A stretch of 64,000 nucleotides of DNA, from assembly GCF_001904635.1 (NCBI RefSeq), contig NZ_MRCB01000004.1, forward strand, positions 124,001 to 188,000. The letters run 5' to 3'. The first letter of the stretch is position 1, and each line of letters begins with the position of its first letter. Source of the stretch: Hydrococcus rivularis NIES-593. Its GTDB lineage: Bacteria; Cyanobacteriota; Cyanobacteriia; Cyanobacteriales; Microcystaceae. Both the position numbers and the translations under genes were made by a program. Positions 13,894 to 21,835 of the stretch are shown in pieces. Below the pieces are notes generated by a model, which was not told the origin of the DNA, searched no databases, and saw only the letters and a program-made list of their open reading frames with translations.

Positions 13894-14985
13894 ATGGTAG
13901 AAACAACGAATCACTGGAGTGAGATGACCAACGATCTCGTTAGAGCTTGGGCTGATACGGGAACTCAAATGTGGAAAAGCTGGTTTAACCTGATGGGACT
14001 AGCACCAACTGCTGAGACGCTTGCCGATGCCAAACCGGCATTCAAGTACGTTGCCCAGCGATTTGTAGATAATCAAGACCTGTTTGTGCGCTTTCTCAGA
14101 TTATCCTACAAAGCCTGGACGGATATTTTTCCCAAGGTAGAATCGGGCGAAGACTGGCAACAGACATTGAGCAAATACACCGAGCAGATTCGCCAGCAGT
14201 TTGACCAGTTTTTCACGGGAACGCTTAGAGTGAGTCAAGATACAGCCCAGTTGTGGCAGCTATACTTGAAAGAAACGCAGAAATTTAACCAGCTTTGGGC
14301 ATCTGCTCTCATGTCGTCCTCTGGATTGATTAGTAAGACGGTCACGGGAACCAGCACGCCTTGGATCGAGCTAAATAACCTCTACTGGAACTTACTGTAC
14401 GAAGAAACCTTTGGCAGCTTGATGCAAAGCCCCATCCTCGGGCCGACTCGCGAGTTCAATGGCAAGTTAGTACGAGCTTTCGATGCCTGGACAGATCTTT
14501 ATCAGGCGACCATCAATTATCAAATCGTGCTAGCCAACGTCCAAATTCGTTCTTTTGAACAGTTGATGCGAGAGTTGGTTTCTTTAGCCGAGAAGGGCAA
14601 AACCGTGAAGAACTGGCGAGAGTTTCAGGATATTTGGAGCCAGGTTGCCGACGACGTTTTTGCCCAGGCATTCTGCGATGAAGAGAACCTCAAGATTCGG
14701 GGTAAGTTCCTCAACTCCCTTAATAACTATAGGCTCCAACAGCAAGAACTGCTAGAATTGTGGATGAAACTAGCGGGAATGCCCGTGCGCAGCGAAGTAG
14801 ACGAGATGCATAAGAATATTTACGAGCTGCGGAAAGAGGTCAAGAACCTGAAAAAAACTTTGGCCAGGTATGAGGCGAGCGATCGCGAAAACCAAGAAGT
14901 GCTCAAGGAACTCAAGGCTCTCAAACAAACCCTACTCGCCTATGAGAGTAGCGAGCCACCAACCCAGCCACAAGCCCAAGATTAA
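13894..14985 (+). CDS. phaE: PHA synthase class III subunit PhaE
   Basis: PhaE is the non-catalytic partner that activates PhaC in class III synthases of cyanobacteria and purple sulphur bacteria. The 363-residue protein is helix-rich and has family landmarks: TQMWKSWFNLMG near the start, SPILGPTREFNGKLVRAFDAW around residues 180-200, FCDEENLKIRGKFLNSLNNYR around 265-285, and RSEVDEMHKNIYELRKEVK leading into a C-terminal coiled coil (about 300-350). The ATG at 13894 follows a GAGGAAAG site. phaC starts 21 bases after its stop, so the two subunits are translated from one message. Confidence 0.95.
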   Translation: MVETTNHWSEMTNDLVRAWADTGTQMWKSWFNLMGLAPTAETLADAKPAFKYVAQRFVDNQDLFVRFLRLSYKAWTDIFPKVESGEDWQQTLSKYTEQIRQQFDQFFTGTLRVSQDTAQLWQLYLKETQKFNQLWASALMSSSGLISKTVTGTSTPWIELNNLYWNLLYEETFGSLMQSPILGPTREFNGKLVRAFDAWTDLYQATINYQIVLANVQIRSFEQLMRELVSLAEKGKTVKNWREFQDIWSQVADDVFAQAFCDEENLKIRGKFLNSLNNYRLQQQELLELWMKLAGMPVRSEVDEMHKNIYELRKEVKNLKKTLARYEASDRENQEVLKELKALKQTLLAYESSEPPTQPQAQD

Positions 14986-15006
14986 CCTCAATAGGAAATA
15001 GGACTG

Positions 15007-16167
15007 ATGCATTTTGATAGTCCTACAAGAAAAATTCATCTAGCGCAGTTAGATAAAGAGGAAACAAAAGACATGCTGCCGTTTTTAACTCAGATACGCC
15101 TTGAAGATGTGAGCCACGAGTACACCGAACTAACCAAAAAAGTCCTTCAAGGCATTGAAAACCTAAGCCGCCTGCGAGAGGAAGATATTGAAATTGGCGC
15201 TACGCCTAAAGAAGCGGTTTACAGAGAGGATAAAGTAATTCTATACCGCTTCAAGCCGATGGTCGAGCAGCCTTTGAGCATTCCCCTCCTAATTGTTTAT
15301 GCTTTGGTTAACCGTCCCTATATGGTCGATCTACAAGAGGATCGATCCCTGGTTGCCAATTTGCTCAAACTGGGTTTGGATGTCTATTTGATTGACTGGG
15401 GATACCCCAGCAGAGCCGATCGCTGGTTAACCCTCGACGATTACATTAATGGCTATATCAATAACTGTGTCGATTTCATCAGAGAAAAGCACGGTTTGGA
15501 GAAAATTAACCTTTTAGGGATTTGTCAAGGGGGAGCTTTCAGTCTGTGCTACTCCTCCCTTTATCCCGAAAAGGTAAAAAATTTAATCGTCATGGTTGCG
15601 CCAGTAGATTTTAACATGCCCAACACCTTGCTCAACATGCGCGGAGGCTGCACCCTTGGGGCAGAAGCTTTGGATGTGGATCTGATGGTCAAGAGCCTGG
15701 GCAATATTCCTGGCGATTTTCTCAACCTTGAGTTTTTGATGCTCAAACCCCAGCAGTTAGGAATTCAAAAATACCTTGACTTTCCAGAAGTCATGACCAG
15801 CGAAGACAAGCTATTAAACTTTATGCGGATGGAAAAGTGGATCTTTGACAGCCCCGATCAGGCAGGGGAGGCATACCGACAGTTCATGAAGGATTTTTAT
15901 CAGGAAAATAAACTCATTAAAGGGGAAGTGATGCTCGGCGATAAGCGCGTGGATCTAAAAAACGTGCGGATGCCAGTCTTGAACCTTTACGCCGAAAAGG
16001 ATCATCTGGTAGATCCCGAATCTTCTAAAGCACTAGAAAAATATGTGGGAACAGAGGATTATACGGTGCGCTCCTTCCCAGTCGGTCATATCGGTATGTA
16101 TGTCAGCGGCAAGGTACAGCGAGATTTGCCTCCTACAATCGTCGATTGGTTGAAGGCACGAATGTGA
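15007..16167 (+). CDS. phaC: PHA synthase class III catalytic subunit PhaC
   Basis: PhaC polymerises (R)-3-hydroxybutyryl-CoA into PHB at the granule surface. It has the alpha/beta-hydrolase fold with a lipase-like box GICQGG in which Cys173 replaces serine, as in all PHA synthases; the other triad members are the Asp in YAEKDHLVDP and the His in PVGHIGMYVSG near the C-terminus. The length of 386 residues fits class III (about 40 kDa) and excludes class I and II. The start at 15007 gives MHFDSPTRK; a second ATG at 15073 (MLPFLTQ) is the common family start and is equally possible. It forms an operon with phaE. Confidence 0.95.
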   Translation: MHFDSPTRKIHLAQLDKEETKDMLPFLTQIRLEDVSHEYTELTKKVLQGIENLSRLREEDIEIGATPKEAVYREDKVILYRFKPMVEQPLSIPLLIVYALVNRPYMVDLQEDRSLVANLLKLGLDVYLIDWGYPSRADRWLTLDDYINGYINNCVDFIREKHGLEKINLLGICQGGAFSLCYSSLYPEKVKNLIVMVAPVDFNMPNTLLNMRGGCTLGAEALDVDLMVKSLGNIPGDFLNLEFLMLKPQQLGIQKYLDFPEVMTSEDKLLNFMRMEKWIFDSPDQAGEAYRQFMKDFYQENKLIKGEVMLGDKRVDLKNVRMPVLNLYAEKDHLVDPESSKALEKYVGTEDYTVRSFPVGHIGMYVSGKVQRDLPPTIVDWLKARM

Positions 16168-16275
16168 ACTCATAGTTAGCTTCTGGCGATAGAGTTGACT
16201 TTACAGGCGTTCGGAGACGTAGATAGTAGGCTACGTCTCTACCTGTGAGAGGCCATTTTTCAATTCACAACAGTA

Positions 16276-16390
16276 ATACCAATTTTCATGTTTTCACGAT
16301 ATACATTCTTCACCCCTCTCCCTATTTGGGAGAGGGGTTGGGGGTGAGGGCAATCGACTATCTGTGTCATTAATGAATGAAAAATGATAT
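16276..16390 (+). repeat. Inverted-repeat element family B, copy 1
   Basis: A 115-bp non-coding element with ends ATACCAATTTTCA and its imperfect complement TGAAAAATGATAT. The centre is CCCCTCTCCCTATTTGGGAGAGGGG, a strong hairpin. Related copies lie at 17526-17642 and, reversed, at 21846-21959. It sits between phaC and the patatin gene. Confidence 0.8.
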
Positions 16391-16405
16391 AAGGACTCAG
16401 AAAAA

Positions 16406-17356
16406 ATGCAAGAAAACGGGGAAAAGCGGCGGGTTGCGGTCGCCTGTCAAGGAGGTGGTAGCCATACGGCGTTTACTGCTGGAGTTTTGAAAAGAATCCT
16501 CAAGCAAGCAGGAGAGGAGTTTGAAATTGTGGCTCTGAGCGGAACTTCAGGAGGCGCTATCTGCGCTCTCTTGACCTGGTATGGTCTACTCTTGGGAAGT
16601 CAACAGAAAGCGATCGAACTGCTCGATACTTTTTGGCGCGATAATTCTGCTACGTCGTGTTGGGATAATTATCTCAACAACAGCCTTGTTTGGGCTTCTC
16701 GCCTCAGCAGCGTTTTTTCGCTGCCCGAAGTTAGCCCGTATTTTTACCCCAATTGGGGTCAGCAGATCCTCAAGCAACTGTTGAAAAAGCACGTTCGATT
16801 TGACAAAATCGGAGAACTGCTCGACGAATCAAGTCCCGTGTTAATTGTGGGAGCGGTCAACGTCCTTGACGGTCGTTTTAAAGTTTTTAAGAATGCTGAA
16901 ATTACTCTAGAGGCGATTCTCGCCTCAGCCGCGATTCCCATTTTATTTAGAGCCGTGCGAATCGGACAAGCGGCATTTTGGGATGGGCTGTTTACGCAAA
17001 ACCCCCCGATAAGAGACTTGCCAGATGCTAAACCCGATGAGATCTGGGTCATCCAAATCGAGCCGCCAGCTCGCAAGGAGGAGCCAAAGTCCGTAGAAGA
17101 CATACGCGATCGGCGTACCGAACTCTCTGGTAATCTTTCCCTAGAACAGGAAATCCATTTTATAGAAAAGATCAATCAGTTGCTCCAAAGCAAGCTCCTT
17201 ATAGATAGCAAGTACAAGCCTATTGAAGTCAAGCGAATTATGATGCTTCGCGAGCTTGATTATTCGTCCAAAATAGATCGCAGCCCTTCATTTATCCAGA
17301 GTATGATGGCTTATGGTGAAACAGAGGCTGAAACCTTCTTGAAGAGCTATCAATGA
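16406..17356 (+). CDS. Patatin-like phospholipase, candidate PHB depolymerase
   Basis: A 316-residue serine hydrolase of the patatin family. It shows the glycine-rich oxyanion loop CQGGGSHTAF (residues 14-23), the nucleophile box GTSGG (serine near 48) and the aspartate of the dyad in FWDGLFTQNPP near 194. No signal peptide or membrane helix is seen, so it should act inside the cell. Patatin proteins are usually lipid acyl hydrolases. However, a patatin-like enzyme (PhaZh1 of Haloferax mediterranei) is known as a granule-bound PHA depolymerase, and the position directly after phaEC makes a role in polymer mobilisation a reasonable inference. A general phospholipase function cannot be excluded. 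Confidence 0.85.
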   Translation: MQENGEKRRVAVACQGGGSHTAFTAGVLKRILKQAGEEFEIVALSGTSGGAICALLTWYGLLLGSQQKAIELLDTFWRDNSATSCWDNYLNNSLVWASRLSSVFSLPEVSPYFYPNWGQQILKQLLKKHVRFDKIGELLDESSPVLIVGAVNVLDGRFKVFKNAEITLEAILASAAIPILFRAVRIGQAAFWDGLFTQNPPIRDLPDAKPDEIWVIQIEPPARKEEPKSVEDIRDRRTELSGNLSLEQEIHFIEKINQLLQSKLLIDSKYKPIEVKRIMMLRELDYSSKIDRSPSFIQSMMAYGETEAETFLKSYQ

Positions 17357-17370
17357 AAATAAAACATCTG

Positions 17371-17519
17371 GTTGACTGACAAATTTTTATCCCCTCATCC
17401 CTAAATCCCTTTTCCCACAAGGGGCGAAGGGACTTCAGGCAAAAGTTTTAAGTGGAAAGCCCCTCCCCCAGTGCGGGAGAGGGGTTGGGGTGAGGGCGAT
17501 TTGAGTTTTGTCAGTCAAC
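17371..17519 (+). repeat. Inverted-repeat element family A, copy 2 (intact)
   Basis: A 149-bp element with terminal repeats GTTGACTGACAAA and TTTGTCAGTCAAC, a perfect 13-base inverted pair. Internally it holds CCCTCATCCCTAAATCCC and GGGAGAGGGGTTGGGG tracts. No coding potential. It is the best preserved of the three copies. Confidence 0.85.
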
Positions 17520-17525
17520 TAGATA

Positions 17526-17642
17526 ATACCAATTTTCAGGTTTTCGCGATCGACATTCTTCTCCCCTCTCCCTATTTGGGAGAAGGGTTGGGGGTGTGAG
17601 AGCGATCGACCATCTCTGTCATTAATGAATGAAAAATGGTAT
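17526..17642 (+). repeat. Inverted-repeat element family B, copy 2
   Basis: A 117-bp element with ends ATACCAATTTTCA and TGAAAAATGGTAT, close to perfect inverted repeats. It is separated by only 6 bases from the family A copy. Confidence 0.8.
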
Positions 17643-17882
17643 GAAACATTCAATTTCCAATAGAAATCAACTTTGTTTCCACAATCAGGCAAAAATTCCG
17701 TAAGGACGGCAGCCAAAATAGCAGCCACCATCCTCCTAGCCGCCAAATGTTACCCCAACGTTCTGGATAAGCATCTAACAAAGGCTGCACCCCTCAAGAG
17801 CGATCTTGAGGGTCGGTTTGATTGCACAAGGGCTGCGGCGACTCCTGGGAACCCAAGACGCACTCAAAGGTTGACGGCAAAT

Positions 17883-18287
17883 TTAATTTACACTACTGTC
17901 TGGGGTTTTCTGCATCATATCAAAATAGCTATTCCAGATCTGCCGTTGGGTTTCCACCATCGTTGGTGTTTTTTGCAGCAAGTCAAAATAGTTATTTACA
18001 AGCTGCTTTTGAGTTTCCATCACTGTTGGTATTTTCCGCAGCAAGTCAAAATAGTTATTCCAGAACTGCCGTTGGGTTTCTATTAGCATCTGAGCTGTTT
18101 TCTCTTGAGCTTCAAGGGAAGTTTTTACGACTTCTTCTTGGAATTTCATCGTTTTATCGAAATTTTCCGAGAAATTAAGCGTATTCTTTCCCGCAGTAGT
18201 AGGTATTGTTTCAAGCCAAATGTCGAAATACTTTTTCTGCCAATTGGCGATTTCTTGTTGATAATCTTCAAATACTTTGGTATCCAT
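17883..18287 (-). CDS. phaP: Phasin-like PHB granule protein with triplicated helix unit
   Basis: A 134-residue protein closely related to the 90-residue phasin-like protein encoded at 19886-20158 and, from memory of the family, to the cyanobacterial PhaP type. Such proteins coat PHB granules and control their size and number. Residues 1-69 are amphipathic helix with the shared pattern MDTK(V/I)...WQKK...W(L)E...NF.ENF.KT.KFQEE. Residues 70-132 are three tandem 21-residue units (ETQRQFWNNYFDLLRKIPTVM-like), whereas the paralogue has one. The start at 18287 is followed upstream by a leader conserved with the paralogue. The context of phaEC and the patatin gene supports the granule role; direct binding is inferred. 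Confidence 0.82.
   Translation of the reverse strand: MDTKVFEDYQQEIANWQKKYFDIWLETIPTTAGKNTLNFSENFDKTMKFQEEVVKTSLEAQEKTAQMLIETQRQFWNNYFDLLRKIPTVMETQKQLVNNYFDLLQKTPTMVETQRQIWNSYFDMMQKTPDSSVN
17892..18080 (-). repeat. Three tandem 63-bp repeats inside the phasin gene
   Basis: The units encode residues 70-90, 91-111 and 112-132, each ETQ(R/K)Q..N.YFD(L/M)(L/M)(R/Q)K.P followed by three variable residues. The nucleotide sequence repeats with the same 63-base period (CAAGTCAAAATAGTTATT is shared), so the expansion is fairly recent. Confidence 0.88.
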
Positions 18288-18365
18288 TGATTTTTTTTAC
18301 CGCTAGATACCCCATCCTTTTTTGTGGATGGAGAGGAAGCGGGGCGGGATATTAACCACTTCCTA
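18288..18365 (-). promoter_or_regulatory. Conserved two-hairpin leader of the 134-residue phasin gene
   Basis: Reading on the minus strand, hairpin 1 pairs GGAAGTGG (18363-18356) with CCGCTTCC (18342-18335), and hairpin 2 pairs CTCCATCC (18333-18326) with GGATGGGG (18317-18310). The start codon follows 22 bases later. The same two hairpins, with base changes that keep pairing, precede the other phasin gene at 20159-20233. Confidence 0.65.
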
Positions 18366-19067
18366 ATTTTTTCCTCTCATCCATTAATATTATAGGCTTT
18401 CGCCTGAAATTGAAGTCTTAAAAATAACATCTCGAAACTTAAAATTCTTATCAAAACTTGACAAAGTCTAGTCAAATTCTCATTTAGATAGGAAACGATG
18501 TTTAATTATTTGTTGAAAAATGTTAAATAGATAACAGTCCTAATAAGTTGGATTGGTTACAATCTATCATTAGAGGGATGGAAAGACTGAGGATGTAATA
18601 TTCTTTACACAACTGAGTAAGGATTCACTTTTCTCGCTAGTATGGTTCTGTGAAGCTTTTGATTCTTATTCAAAAATAGCTTTACCAGAGCTTTACCAAG
18701 AATTAAATTAGTAAAGAATTTTGTGATTCTCTAGATGAGTATTTGTGTAGATATTGCACTAAAAGTAATCATCAAAGAGAATTATCGCGTCTAGCGAATT
18801 ACTATGCACTACTTCTTGACTAGGATTTAAAAACTTTGATAGTCGATCTAATCTAATAGGTTGTCCCAAAGGTAGAGAACGTCATGTTGAGCGTAGCAAT
18901 AGCAAAACGAAACATCTGATAGCAGTTTTCAGTAAGATGAGAGACAAAATGGACTTTTCAGATCGGATGTCCTCTAAACCTAAGTTCCAAAGAGAATCTG
19001 CCGAACAGACCTTATCTATCAATTTGTAGATAGATTTATAGACAGACGAGGTTGAAATAAATGCACC
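18366..19067. other. Gene-free region between the phasin leader and the SGNH gene
   Basis: About 700 bases of A/T-rich DNA without a gene. It must contain the phasin promoter (minus strand) and that of the SGNH hydrolase (plus strand). A TAGATAGATTTATAGA-type tract lies near 19027-19042. I see no repeat element or structured RNA I can support. Confidence 0.5.
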
Positions 19068-19769
19068 ATGCCAACTCTTTCTTCTCCCACGATGACATCA
19101 ATGCTTCAACGCCATCGCTTTCCGCTAAGGATTATTGCCCTTGGGGATAGCCTGATCTATGGCTTTGGCGATCCTGTCGGCGGCGGTTGGGTAGAACGTC
19201 TGCGAAGGCAGTGGATGCATCTCGATGGTTCCGGTCACGCTCTCTATAATTTGGGCATTCGCGGGAATGGTGTGGCTCAAGTGCATCAGCGACTCGAACA
19301 GGAGTTTCGCCAACGGGGCGAGCTGAAAAATCGAGTCCCAGACATGATTATTCTATCGGTGGGAGTTAATGACTCGCCGAGAGTGGGTCGTCGAGACGGA
19401 CGCAACTTAACCGATTTTGGAGCGTTTATGGCACAGCTAGCCGACTTGTTAGATCGAGCGCAGCAGTTGTGCCCGGTCATGTTTGTGGGGATGACACCAG
19501 TCGATGAGAGCAAGATGCCCTTTCTTGAGTGTTTGTATTACGATCGCGCCGAACAATACCGCTATAAAGAGGCCACCAGAATTGCTTGCAAGCTACGCCG
19601 TATCCCTTACTTAGACATTTTTGATTTATGGATAGAACGCGGAGAAGAATGGATCGAATCGCGCCTCTGCCCGGACGGACTCCATCCCAATGTTAAAGGC
19701 TACGAAGCTTTGCTAGAAGATATTCGGGCTTGGGAACCATTTTCAAAGCTCTTTGTTCGCCATTCTTAG
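19068..19769 (+). CDS. SGNH/GDSL-family esterase
   Basis: A 233-residue hydrolase with the four SGNH blocks: GDSL with the nucleophile Ser28, the glycine in NLGIRGNG, the asparagine in SVGVND, and the Asp and His of DGLHPN near residue 205. No signal peptide is obvious, so it is probably cytosolic. Family members act as lipases, acyl-CoA thioesterases or carbohydrate esterases, and the substrate is not decided by the sequence. It lies between the two phasin genes on the opposite strand, which invites but does not prove a link with polymer turnover. The ATG at 19068 is used; in-frame ATGs at 19092 and 19101 are alternatives. Confidence 0.88.
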   Translation: MPTLSSPTMTSMLQRHRFPLRIIALGDSLIYGFGDPVGGGWVERLRRQWMHLDGSGHALYNLGIRGNGVAQVHQRLEQEFRQRGELKNRVPDMIILSVGVNDSPRVGRRDGRNLTDFGAFMAQLADLLDRAQQLCPVMFVGMTPVDESKMPFLECLYYDRAEQYRYKEATRIACKLRRIPYLDIFDLWIERGEEWIESRLCPDGLHPNVKGYEALLEDIRAWEPFSKLFVRHS

Positions 19770-19786
19770 CTGATTTGTGTGAAAAC

Positions 19787-19820
19787 CCCTCAACTGCGAT
19801 CGCAGTTGAGGGTTCTGTTT
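19787..19820 (+). terminator. Terminator hairpin after the SGNH gene
   Basis: A perfect 26-base palindrome (CCCTCAACTGCG paired with CGCAGTTGAGGG, centred on the HIP1 octamer GCGATCGC) at 19787-19812 is followed by TTCTGTTT. It is 17 bases past the SGNH stop and may also serve the convergent phasin gene. Confidence 0.65.
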
Positions 19821-19885
19821 AGGATCGATATTTAACTGCCTGCCGGCTGGGCGCCGGAATACTGACCGCAACCTCCCTACCCAAT

Positions 19886-20158
19886 CTAACCAGAAGTTGT
19901 AGCAGGTGTTTTGCGCATTGTTTCAAAATAATCGCTCCAGAATTGCTTTTGAGTTTCTATCAGCATCTGAGTGGTTTTTTCTTGGACTTCGAGGTAAGAG
20001 CGTACTATTTCCTCTTGGAATTTCAACGTTTTCTCGAAATTCTCTCCGAAATTTAGAGCATTTTTTCCATTGGGTAGACTTTCAAGCCAGGTGTCGATAA
20101 ACTTTTTCTGCCATTCGGAGAATTGCTTTTGATACTCTTCCCAGATTTTCGTATCCAT
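19886..20158 (-). CDS. phaP: Phasin-like PHB granule protein, short form
   Basis: A 90-residue helix-rich protein, paralogous to the 134-residue protein at 17883-18287, with one copy of the ETQKQFWSDYFETMRKTP unit at its end. Its size matches the small cyanobacterial phasin type, which is under 100 residues. The ATG at 20158 (MDTKIWEEYQ) is chosen over an open frame that reaches 20188, because it aligns with the paralogue start and lies after the shared leader. It probably coats PHB granules together with its paralogue. The high similarity of both gene and leader indicates duplication. Confidence 0.85.
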   Translation of the reverse strand: MDTKIWEEYQKQFSEWQKKFIDTWLESLPNGKNALNFGENFEKTLKFQEEIVRSYLEVQEKTTQMLIETQKQFWSDYFETMRKTPATTSG

Positions 20159-20233
20159 TAGCCTTCTGCCGCTAAATTCCCCATCCACAATTGGGACGGA
20201 GAGGAAGCGGGGCGGAATCTTTACCGCTTCCTA
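20159..20233 (-). promoter_or_regulatory. Conserved two-hairpin leader of the short phasin gene
   Basis: On the minus strand, hairpin 1 pairs GGAAGCGG (20231-20224) with CCGCTTCC (20210-20203), and hairpin 2 pairs CTCCGTCC (20201-20194) with GGATGGGG (20186-20179). Compared with the leader at 18288-18365, one G-C pair is G-U there and one A-U pair there is G-U here, so pairing is preserved. Confidence 0.65.
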
Positions 20234-20558
20234 CTTTTTGCTTTTACACCATTATTATAGTCAATTTTTCTCCGCATACTTCATAAATTTAAGCAATTAA
20301 AAGATAATAAACTTTATTAAAAGTTGAAAACTTTTAAACAATTACATTGTCACGATCCCCTGATATTTTTAACTAGCAAGATCGCTAAAAAACTCTGAAA
20401 AAACCCAATTTGTAGATTGACTGACCTTATTTTTGCTGTAATAATTCTATGGTCGCCTTAAATTTTGATTGTTTATCAAAAAATTAAGCGCCTAGAAGCC
20501 TCCGTCGTCAACGACAGATATAGAATTGGTCTCTATTTTTTGAGCGTAACTTTAGGAA
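20234..20558. other. Gene-free region upstream of the short phasin leader
   Basis: About 325 A/T-rich bases containing the promoter of the short phasin gene and the 3' flank of the CAAD gene. The open frame at 20465-20695 is antisense to the CAAD gene and is rejected. Confidence 0.5.
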
Positions 20559-20969
20559 TTAGCGCTCCGATGGTTCGAGCCGGATGGGAGTTGACGATCG
20601 CTGATAAGAGCGAGTTAGATAGCGAGAACCGAACCAAACCGTATAACCTAGACCGACAAGTTCAAATATCGGTTCTAGTAAAGGAACGTCGTTAATAGCA
20701 CCCATTACAGCTAGGGTTAGCTTGAGAACGATCCCCGCTCCTACAAGCCAACCTAGCAAGATTACAGGTTTCTTGTAAGCTTGCCATAAATCATTCCAAT
20801 ATTGTTGCGACTGTTCTATGTAATTAGTGATTTGCTGTCCCAACAGCAGCGACTTTTCTTGGTACGATCGCGGCGCTAAAGTACCGGCGGGTTCGGTACC
20901 GAGCTTGATTTGAGGAGTTTCGGTTTCAAGCAGTTGTTCTTGTGGCACAAATGGTTCAACCATATTCAT
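20559..20969 (-). CDS. CAAD-domain thylakoid-type membrane protein
   Basis: A 136-residue protein with the CAAD domain, first described as an appendage of some cyanobacterial aminoacyl-tRNA synthetases and also found alone (plant CURT1 relatives). Two membrane helices occupy about residues 72-93 and 99-120, with the typical KPVILLGWLVGAGIVLK and PLLEPIFELVGLGYTVWF segments. The N-terminal 60 residues are polar, acidic and proline-rich. The ATG at 20969 is preferred over a TTG at 20999. As a stand-alone form it probably sits in the thylakoid membrane, shaping it or anchoring partners; this is family inference. Confidence 0.85.
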   Translation of the reverse strand: MNMVEPFVPQEQLLETETPQIKLGTEPAGTLAPRSYQEKSLLLGQQITNYIEQSQQYWNDLWQAYKKPVILLGWLVGAGIVLKLTLAVMGAINDVPLLEPIFELVGLGYTVWFGSRYLTRSYQRSSTPIRLEPSER

Positions 20970-21028
20970 TCCCAATCTTTCTAAAGGCGAGAATGCCAAC
21001 CCATCGAGTGGGTTTAATGTAATTTATA

Positions 21029-21835
21029 CTAGCGTTTTTTGTACGGTGACGAATTGTTTAATGGTAATGCCCAACCCAATCGCGTTGGCTGCTGATAGAC
21101 TTTTTTAAGCGTGTTGATATCTCTAGGAGAAATTGAGGGCGGGGTGCGAACTTGAGAAAAATACATAATATCGGTTTCCACCCGACTGTGCCCCCAGATT
21201 CCCAGGGCGTGACCGAGTTCGTGGCGCGCCGCTGAGAGGATCGAGCGATCGCTCAACCCCGGATTAATGAGAATCGTCATGCGATGGGATAAAATAGGCG
21301 GATTTCCTGCGCGGATATAAAACTCGCAGCGAGTTTGCGCCGATCGCGCTCTAAATCTCTTTATCCGTCCCGTTTCGCGGTCTATTTGCACTCCCAAAGG
21401 TGGCAGATATCGCTCGATCGCGATATCTGCCAGTTCTGGTTGCTTAACTTCTATCAAAGGTAGATAGGCGTTCCATTCCCGGATCGCTTCTGCAACGGCA
21501 TTTGTCCATTGCTGGAAACGGCGGTTGCTAGCTGAGGAGTCTTGGAGATTTTCAGGACGATCTAGATAAACTTTAATCGGAAACTCAGACCAAACTAAAT
21601 AACCCGCAGCAGTAGGCTTGACCTCGGAAAAATAGTCCCCTGCCTTTGAGAGAACTTGCCACTGTGCCAATGTAGGCGGCAAGAGATGAACCTGTAAGGG
21701 AGGTAGAAAAGAATTGGAGTCTTTCGCTTCTACGCCCCGAAATTCTAGAAGGATAACAAGGATGCCAATCGCGATCGCAACTCCTATCGCTATAGGATAG
21801 GGGGAGTGGGGAGAGTTGGAGGAGTTGGGAGACAA
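21029..21835 (-). CDS. Membrane-anchored or secreted metzincin zinc protease
   Basis: A 268-residue protein with one N-terminal hydrophobic helix (about residues 14-31) and a matrixin-like zinc motif HELGHALGIWGH (residues 205-216) followed by the Met-turn DIMYF (Met224). All three zinc histidines and the catalytic Glu206 are present. It should act outside the cytoplasm; the substrate is unknown. No ATG is available: the only start giving the signal segment is the TTG at 21835, and the first dozen residues (SPNSSNSPHSPYP) are encoded by CTCCCAACTCC-type filler repeats seen elsewhere between genes, so the N-terminus has probably been remodelled. Confidence 0.85.
   Translation of the reverse strand: MSPNSSNSPHSPYPIAIGVAIAIGILVILLEFRGVEAKDSNSFLPPLQVHLLPPTLAQWQVLSKAGDYFSEVKPTAAGYLVWSEFPIKVYLDRPENLQDSSASNRRFQQWTNAVAEAIREWNAYLPLIEVKQPELADIAIERYLPPLGVQIDRETGRIKRFRARSAQTRCEFYIRAGNPPILSHRMTILINPGLSDRSILSAARHELGHALGIWGHSRVETDIMYFSQVRTPPSISPRDINTLKKVYQQPTRLGWALPLNNSSPYKKR

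Follow-up and report, generated by a model that had tools for sequence, protein, structure and literature searches.

A triplicated C-terminal helix unit in a Hydrococcus phasin, and a putative structured RNA leader shared by phasin genes

Described systems and the pha locus

According to PMC7203880, PhaP controls granule size in Synechocystis PCC 6803, and in Synechocystis PhaP, PhaE and PhaC form a group with Slr0060, a patatin protein. Binding of phasins through amphipathic helices is put forward as a proposed mechanism in PMC5658603, which also describes the tandem repeats of PhaF as AAKP-like and DNA-binding, unlike the units considered below. The literature covered on phasins, PhaE and leader RNA also includes PMC2864571 and PMC11844001.

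The phasin treated here is encoded in a 64,000-nucleotide stretch of Hydrococcus rivularis NIES-593 DNA (the window) and is a variant of an already known kind of protein. It is a full-domain homologue of cyanobacterial PhaP-like proteins and has in common with the Synechocystis type the same ~90-residue domain (residues 1-87 are 47% identical to the homologue of Synechocystis salina) and a gene set beside PHB synthesis. The PhaP-type relatives examined have one C-terminal unit, whereas the window phasin has three. The genes and units are the following.

13894..14985, plus strand: phaE, whose residues 20-49 align with the phasin unit
15007..16167, plus strand: phaC, class III PHA synthase (TIGR01836, 548 bits)
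16406..17356, plus strand: patatin-like phospholipase, between phaC and the three-unit phasin
17883..18287, minus strand: three-unit phasin, 134 aa, ATG start
18018..18080, minus strand: unit 1, residues 70-90, equivalent to the C-terminus usual in the family (ETQRQFWNNYFDLLRKIPTVM)
17955..18017, minus strand: unit 2, residues 91-111 (ETQKQLVNNYFDLLQKTPTMV)
17892..17954, minus strand: unit 3, residues 112-132 (ETQRQIWNSYFDMMQKTPDSS)
19068..19769, plus strand: hydrolase ORF, which we take to be of the SGNH type, between the two phasin genes
19886..20158, minus strand: one-unit phasin paralogue, 90 aa, ATG start at 20158

The original prediction took both proteins for phasins, and this identity is supported: the gene lies near phaE and phaC, and among 58 related genomes the family and PhaE occur in exactly the same 21. 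(The two lists were compared by eye, and the genomes are not independent; the positives represent 12 of 37 genera for the phasin and the same for PhaE.) The single unit ascribed to the paralogue at 19886 is also confirmed, and homology supports its start at ATG 20158, not at GTG 20188. The Pfam phasin families (presumably PF05597, PF09361, PF09602 and PF09650) comprise small helical granule-type proteins, as the window phasins would be, yet neither of the latter matches any of them at E<=1. A PDB sequence search with the phasin returned only weak matches to unrelated proteins (best E 0.004).

Of the 388 genomes sampled from the order 66 gave a phasin match, as did 24 of the 386 genomes of a phylum-wide draw, two of the latter being marginal. 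Phasin-like sequence also occurs in longer proteins. A 153-aa ORF of one congener (G003, L027:1606-2064, minus strand) has a phasin-like C-terminal motif after a DUF2934 domain, and a 309-aa ORF of another (G001, L028:913-1839, minus strand) has such a motif between DUF2934 and DUF2382; each is a possible granule protein. Chlorogloeopsis-type strains have ORFs of ~500 aa with a terminal phasin domain (L044:2765-4252, L045:1507-3000, L046:1867-3405), those of L044 and L046 giving no family at E<=0.1 in a Pfam scan, and several phasin-like ORFs are clustered in these strains. In both phasins found in one further genome (G056, L011 and L025) the N-terminal helix contains 7 inserted residues, the length of one heptad.

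The 21-residue repeat and its history

The 21-residue repeat is real. The three tandem units predicted at 17892-18080 do start at residues 70, 91 and 112, and the 63-bp period of the DNA is recovered by Tandem Repeats Finder (17901-18080, period 63, 2.9 copies, 78% matches, score 206). The three pairs of units together have 38 identities out of 63; when the protein was shuffled 3000 times and scored at periods 18, 21 and 24, the highest total was 16. In an alignment of 13 phasins ten columns are invariant, and four of these lie within the unit (Q72, F75, W76 and Y79).

The copies are not uniform. In unit 2 a V stands in place of W, the usual F of YF is gone from unit 1 of the three-unit orthologue in the congener G002, and unit 3 of that orthologue ends KTQ, which breaks the supposed rule that each unit is ended by proline. 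Apolipoprotein-type repeats are amphipathic segments of 11 or 22 residues punctuated by proline, and the likeness to them that had been suggested fits poorly, the period here being 21 and the prolines not all being conserved.

Among the sequences examined the repeat is lineage-restricted. A set of 120 loci, with the new matches of the phylum draw left out, yields 88 phasin-like ORFs, all distinct and some fragmentary, and a unit HMM finds three units in two of them: the window gene and its G002 orthologue, which is 93% identical. None of the remaining 86 has a second C-terminal unit by this HMM; four have weak second matches (4.6-6.7 bits) that are N-terminally placed, and two have no unit score at all. 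Four genomes of the genus were searched, and G001 and G003 have the one-unit gene and no three-unit gene. Unit number, which the original prediction proposed to count in relatives, is thus not fixed at three in distant homologues.

The same prediction spoke of a recent expansion, and this is not what the units indicate. Orthologous units of the window genome and G002 are identical at 57, 61 and 58 of 63 nt, as against 41-49 of 63 for units inside one gene; since units are closer to their orthologues than to their neighbours, the triplication is older than the split of the two species. The comparison gives no sign of homogenisation among units. Comparison of these genomes gives dN 0.012 and dS 0.176 over residues 1-69, and dN 0.047 and dS 0.192 over the units (rough values, the sequences being short), and with dN so low relative to dS the gene looks constrained. 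It evolves faster than its one-unit paralogue, for which dN is 0 over 267 nt. In G001, phaC is separated from the SGNH-type gene by 628 bp that hold neither patatin nor three-unit phasin and that align, as small collinear pieces, with the window region upstream of the SGNH-type gene. The segment comprising these two genes was therefore either gained in the lineage of the window genome and G002 or lost in G001. Faster evolution, the losses from unit 1 in G002 and absence from the syntenic place in G001 together suggest that the three-unit gene may be dispensable. AU tests on the date of the paralogue duplication leave the alternatives unseparated (p 0.26-0.56).

Predicted structure, likeness to PhaE and possible roles of the tail

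The units are amphipathic, as had been proposed: their hydrophobic moments (muH 0.42-0.61) each exceed 95% of the values for their own shuffles. The AlphaFold models of both phasins, which are of low confidence and built on 14-15 sequences, also accord with the proposal of separate helices. In the three-unit protein (helices 3-27, 39-85, 90-106 and 108-126; pLDDT 66, pTM 0.40) units 2 and 3 correspond to the two last helices, which follow the long helix 39-85; the one-unit protein (helices 3-26 and 37-83; pLDDT 72) has its unit as the end of the long helix. Units 2 and 3, predicted as separate helices, thus resemble additional helices set on hinges.

The unit has a counterpart of sorts near the N-terminus of PhaE. 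Positions 4-22 of the Pfam profile PHA_synth_III_E (PF09712) match phasin residues 112-130 (whole-protein E 3.1e-5); the score for the three-unit phasin, 23.9 bits, is below the gathering cutoff of 25.7, and the best stretch is 19 residues long. The profile matches five of 13 phasins at E<=1 and gives no match at that threshold with the one-unit window paralogue. When 73 phasin rows, without the three-unit ones and with the window paralogue added, are compared as a profile with the window PhaE and its relatives, phasin columns 67-96 align with PhaE 20-49 at a score of 32.7 (maximum 24.8 in 400 column shuffles; 14.5 with columns reversed), and hhalign gives the match of phasin unit and PhaE a probability of ~50%. 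A search of 13 PhaE ORFs (two lacking the N-terminus) with the unit HMM found nothing significant (best 1.8 bits). Significant likeness to PhaE (PF09712, TIGR01834) is limited to this one helix, which is N-terminal in the 363-aa window PhaE and C-terminal in the phasin. These comparisons hint that phasins and their synthase partner PhaE share a docking helix; the likeness may be due to common descent or to convergence of W/F-rich amphipathic helices, the latter being possible. A PhaE-like N-terminus is also seen in a G003 ORF of ~250 aa (L147:1468-2229) that has no Pfam match at E<=0.1.

Taken together, the locus can be read as encoding a cyanobacterial-type phasin with a granule- or synthase-docking helix that was triplicated before the species split, behind a structured leader that controls initiation of translation; we regard this reading as fairly probable. 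The C-terminal 21-residue helix would most likely lie on the granule surface or dock on synthase parts there. Three hinged copies could then increase avidity or enable a single molecule to link several sites, and the one-unit paralogue would do the basic job, in a division of labour. The repeat is probably functional, and the mechanism we favour is the multiplication of a helix that would dock on the granule surface; an oligomerisation arm and a neutral tail are live rivals.

The first rival, in which the repeats form an oligomerisation or coiled-coil arm and not a granule-binding surface, is unlikely but deserves to be taken seriously. Twenty-one residues are three heptads, and the moments of the three units are aligned when calculated at the coiled-coil pitch of 102.86 degrees (204, 221 and 203 degrees) and rotate when calculated at 100 degrees (174, 134 and 60). 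However, a proline stands near the end of each unit in the window protein, the model breaks at 86-89 and 107, and the family motif is W/F-rich, not a leucine heptad. It is likewise unlikely that units 2 and 3 came from DNA slippage and are tolerated as the harmless tail of a dispensable paralogue. Such an origin would sit well with the absence of the gene from its syntenic place in G001, with the weaker constraint on the units than on the N-terminal part and with the loss of W, F and terminal P, each in some unit, but the units remain in frame and amphipathic, their dN/dS is ~0.25 at a dS of ~0.19, and unit 2 differs between the two species at 1 of 21 residues.

The leader upstream of both phasin genes

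The preQ1-II riboswitch is an H-type pseudoknot with an embedded hairpin. Riboswitches of this kind comprise a stem, a short loop, a pseudoknot strand and a hairpin in loop 3, and lie near a start codon. The same topology is proposed for a leader of 76-77 nt that lies ahead of both window phasin genes; it differs from them in having no Rfam match in the stretches scanned and in the great diversity of the genes downstream. Its elements are the following.

18389..18394, minus strand: possible -10 box TATAAT upstream of the three-unit phasin leader (consensus match only)
18295..18371, minus strand: leader of the three-unit phasin (model match 73.9 bits, E 1.4e-16)
18363-18356/18342-18335, minus strand: P1 of this leader
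18333-18326/18317-18310, minus strand: P2 of this leader
18347-18344 (CCGC) with 18303-18300 (GCGG), minus strand: P3, putative pseudoknot of this leader
20164..20239, minus strand: leader of the one-unit phasin (model match 68.7 bits, E 2.7e-15)

The start codon follows GCGG by 12 nt in the three-unit gene and by 10 nt in the one-unit gene (GCGG at 20172-20169). These are the only two places in the window that the leader model matches at E<=1.

The case for a structured leader rests on covariation, not on folding energy. In an alignment of 27 phasin leaders that was not fitted to the structure, 12 of 21 pairs in P1, P2 and P3 are changed on both sides (11 of 16 for P1 and P2), and on each of five measures the alignment surpasses all 500 shuffles. 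A set of 80 leaders, which was taken from the best matches and is not a random sample, was aligned by fitting to P1 and P2 (this flatters the two stems; P3 is outside the model). Both-side changes occur there at 15 of 21 pairs, a count reached by 3 of 500 shuffles, and at 13 of 16 in the fitted P1 and P2; the number of cells changed on both sides is 177 (72.1 +- 6.6 when shuffled) and the covariation 0.330 (0.182 +- 0.007 when shuffled), each reached by none of 500. The CCGC/GCGG core of P3 is nearly invariant in the 80 leaders (one row is compensatory and one broken); the outer pair of P3 can form in 36 of the 80 (permutation p 0.009). The leader may thus be described as two stems shown by covariation together with a putative pseudoknot.

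From the first leader alignment RNAalifold predicts the P3 core and part of P2, and not P1. Four leaders folded singly have z-scores of -3.28, -2.93, -1.88 and -0.29. P3 as a lone alternative fold is disfavoured because P1 with P2 is stabler than P3 with P2 in 76 of 80 leaders.

In 75 of the 80 leaders an ATG that opens an ORF of 55 aa or more lies 3-20 nt downstream of GCGG (median 11), and for the other five no such ATG was found; of random points in the same loci 10.2% are as near to any start codon and 3.7% to ATG. It is improbable that a DNA operator or mobile repeat, and not RNA structure, accounts for the conserved blocks. Such a reading would suit the near-invariance of CCGCC and GCGG, which is what one would see in a protein site, the no more than moderate covariation of the outer pair of P3 and the no more than modest enrichment of exact TATAAT upstream (16 of 80, where 5.4 are expected), but the excess of both-side changes, the placement on the same strand just before start codons and the near-constant spacing of P1 and CCGC (6 nt in 68 of 80) all speak for RNA.

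The leader is common to both window phasins and many others, and many phasin genes, mostly more distant ones, are without it. Matches at E<=0.01 were found in 183 of 388 genomes of the order, and in the phylum draw, which overlaps that sample, in 39 of 377 (37 within that order, the other 2 weak and from outside); copies per genome in these searches are lower bounds, at most 12-13 candidates per genome having been scored. One weak match in G003 (C111, E 0.0017) has no ATG start close behind it and looks coding, so that some of the weak matches counted in the 183 genomes are probably spurious. Five genomes chosen for having matches contain 1, 2, 7, 5 and 5 leaders at E<=0.5 (150 candidates scored; one match is only 25 nt long).

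By a motif rule the 75 genes that follow the leader divide into 25 acyl carrier proteins, 21 phasins and 29 others. Eighteen of the others were scanned and 14 have a Pfam family, including plastocyanin (petE), glutamyl-tRNA reductase (hemA), S30AE (HPF-type), Ser/Thr kinase and trypsin-like protease as well as phycobilisome protein, ribosomal L33, Nif11, PAS, HATPase and PadR. Further leader genes we take to be sigma factors, 6-phosphogluconate dehydrogenase, GAPDH, ribosomal L19 and a response regulator. Besides the window pair, the leader loci include L175, L177, L197, L219, L227 and L243; at 15 loci the motif finder, whose placement is rougher, gave an ORF in 13. These diverse genes suggest no ligand, and none fits all of them. 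The acpP gene of the window genome has a degenerate copy (26 bits, E 0.01; L260:1501-1583) that keeps CCGC/GCGG, and in which a rival hairpin, AAGCGGGAAUCCCGCUU, could hide CCGC.

An SD-like tetramer is present in 2 of 31 phasin leaders that have the element and in 34 of 46 without it (related sequences, not independent), the two exceptions being the window one-unit phasin and its G002 orthologue; over all leader genes it is found in the spacer of 6 of 75. With GCGG ending 12 and 10 nt before the starts, the leader most likely controls initiation of translation. We consider it quite probable that it represents a new class of cyanobacterial cis-regulatory RNA over both phasins, an H-type pseudoknot, with a hairpin embedded in it, that for the most part replaces the Shine-Dalgarno sequence and controls, via a ligand or a protein, translation of a lineage-variable regulon. 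As part of that same reading, the regulon would comprise acpP, phasins, plastocyanin, HemA, phycobilisome protein, GAPDH, sigma factors, the HPF-type protein, L33, L19 and Ser/Thr kinases.

Rfam 15 gives no match to the leader at E<=1 in positions 14000-21500 of the window or in sets of 5 and 18 loci. No description of it was found in the literature covered, of which subscription papers were mostly outside the scope, as was a 2017 RNA survey that reportedly lists 224 candidate RNAs. The leader RNA is the stronger discovery of the two and is apparently undescribed. The repeat can be thought of as a natural experiment in valency, one family having one or three copies of a conserved helix. The leader, if the reading given here is true, would be a new layer of cyanobacterial gene control placed before central genes, and a usable expression part.
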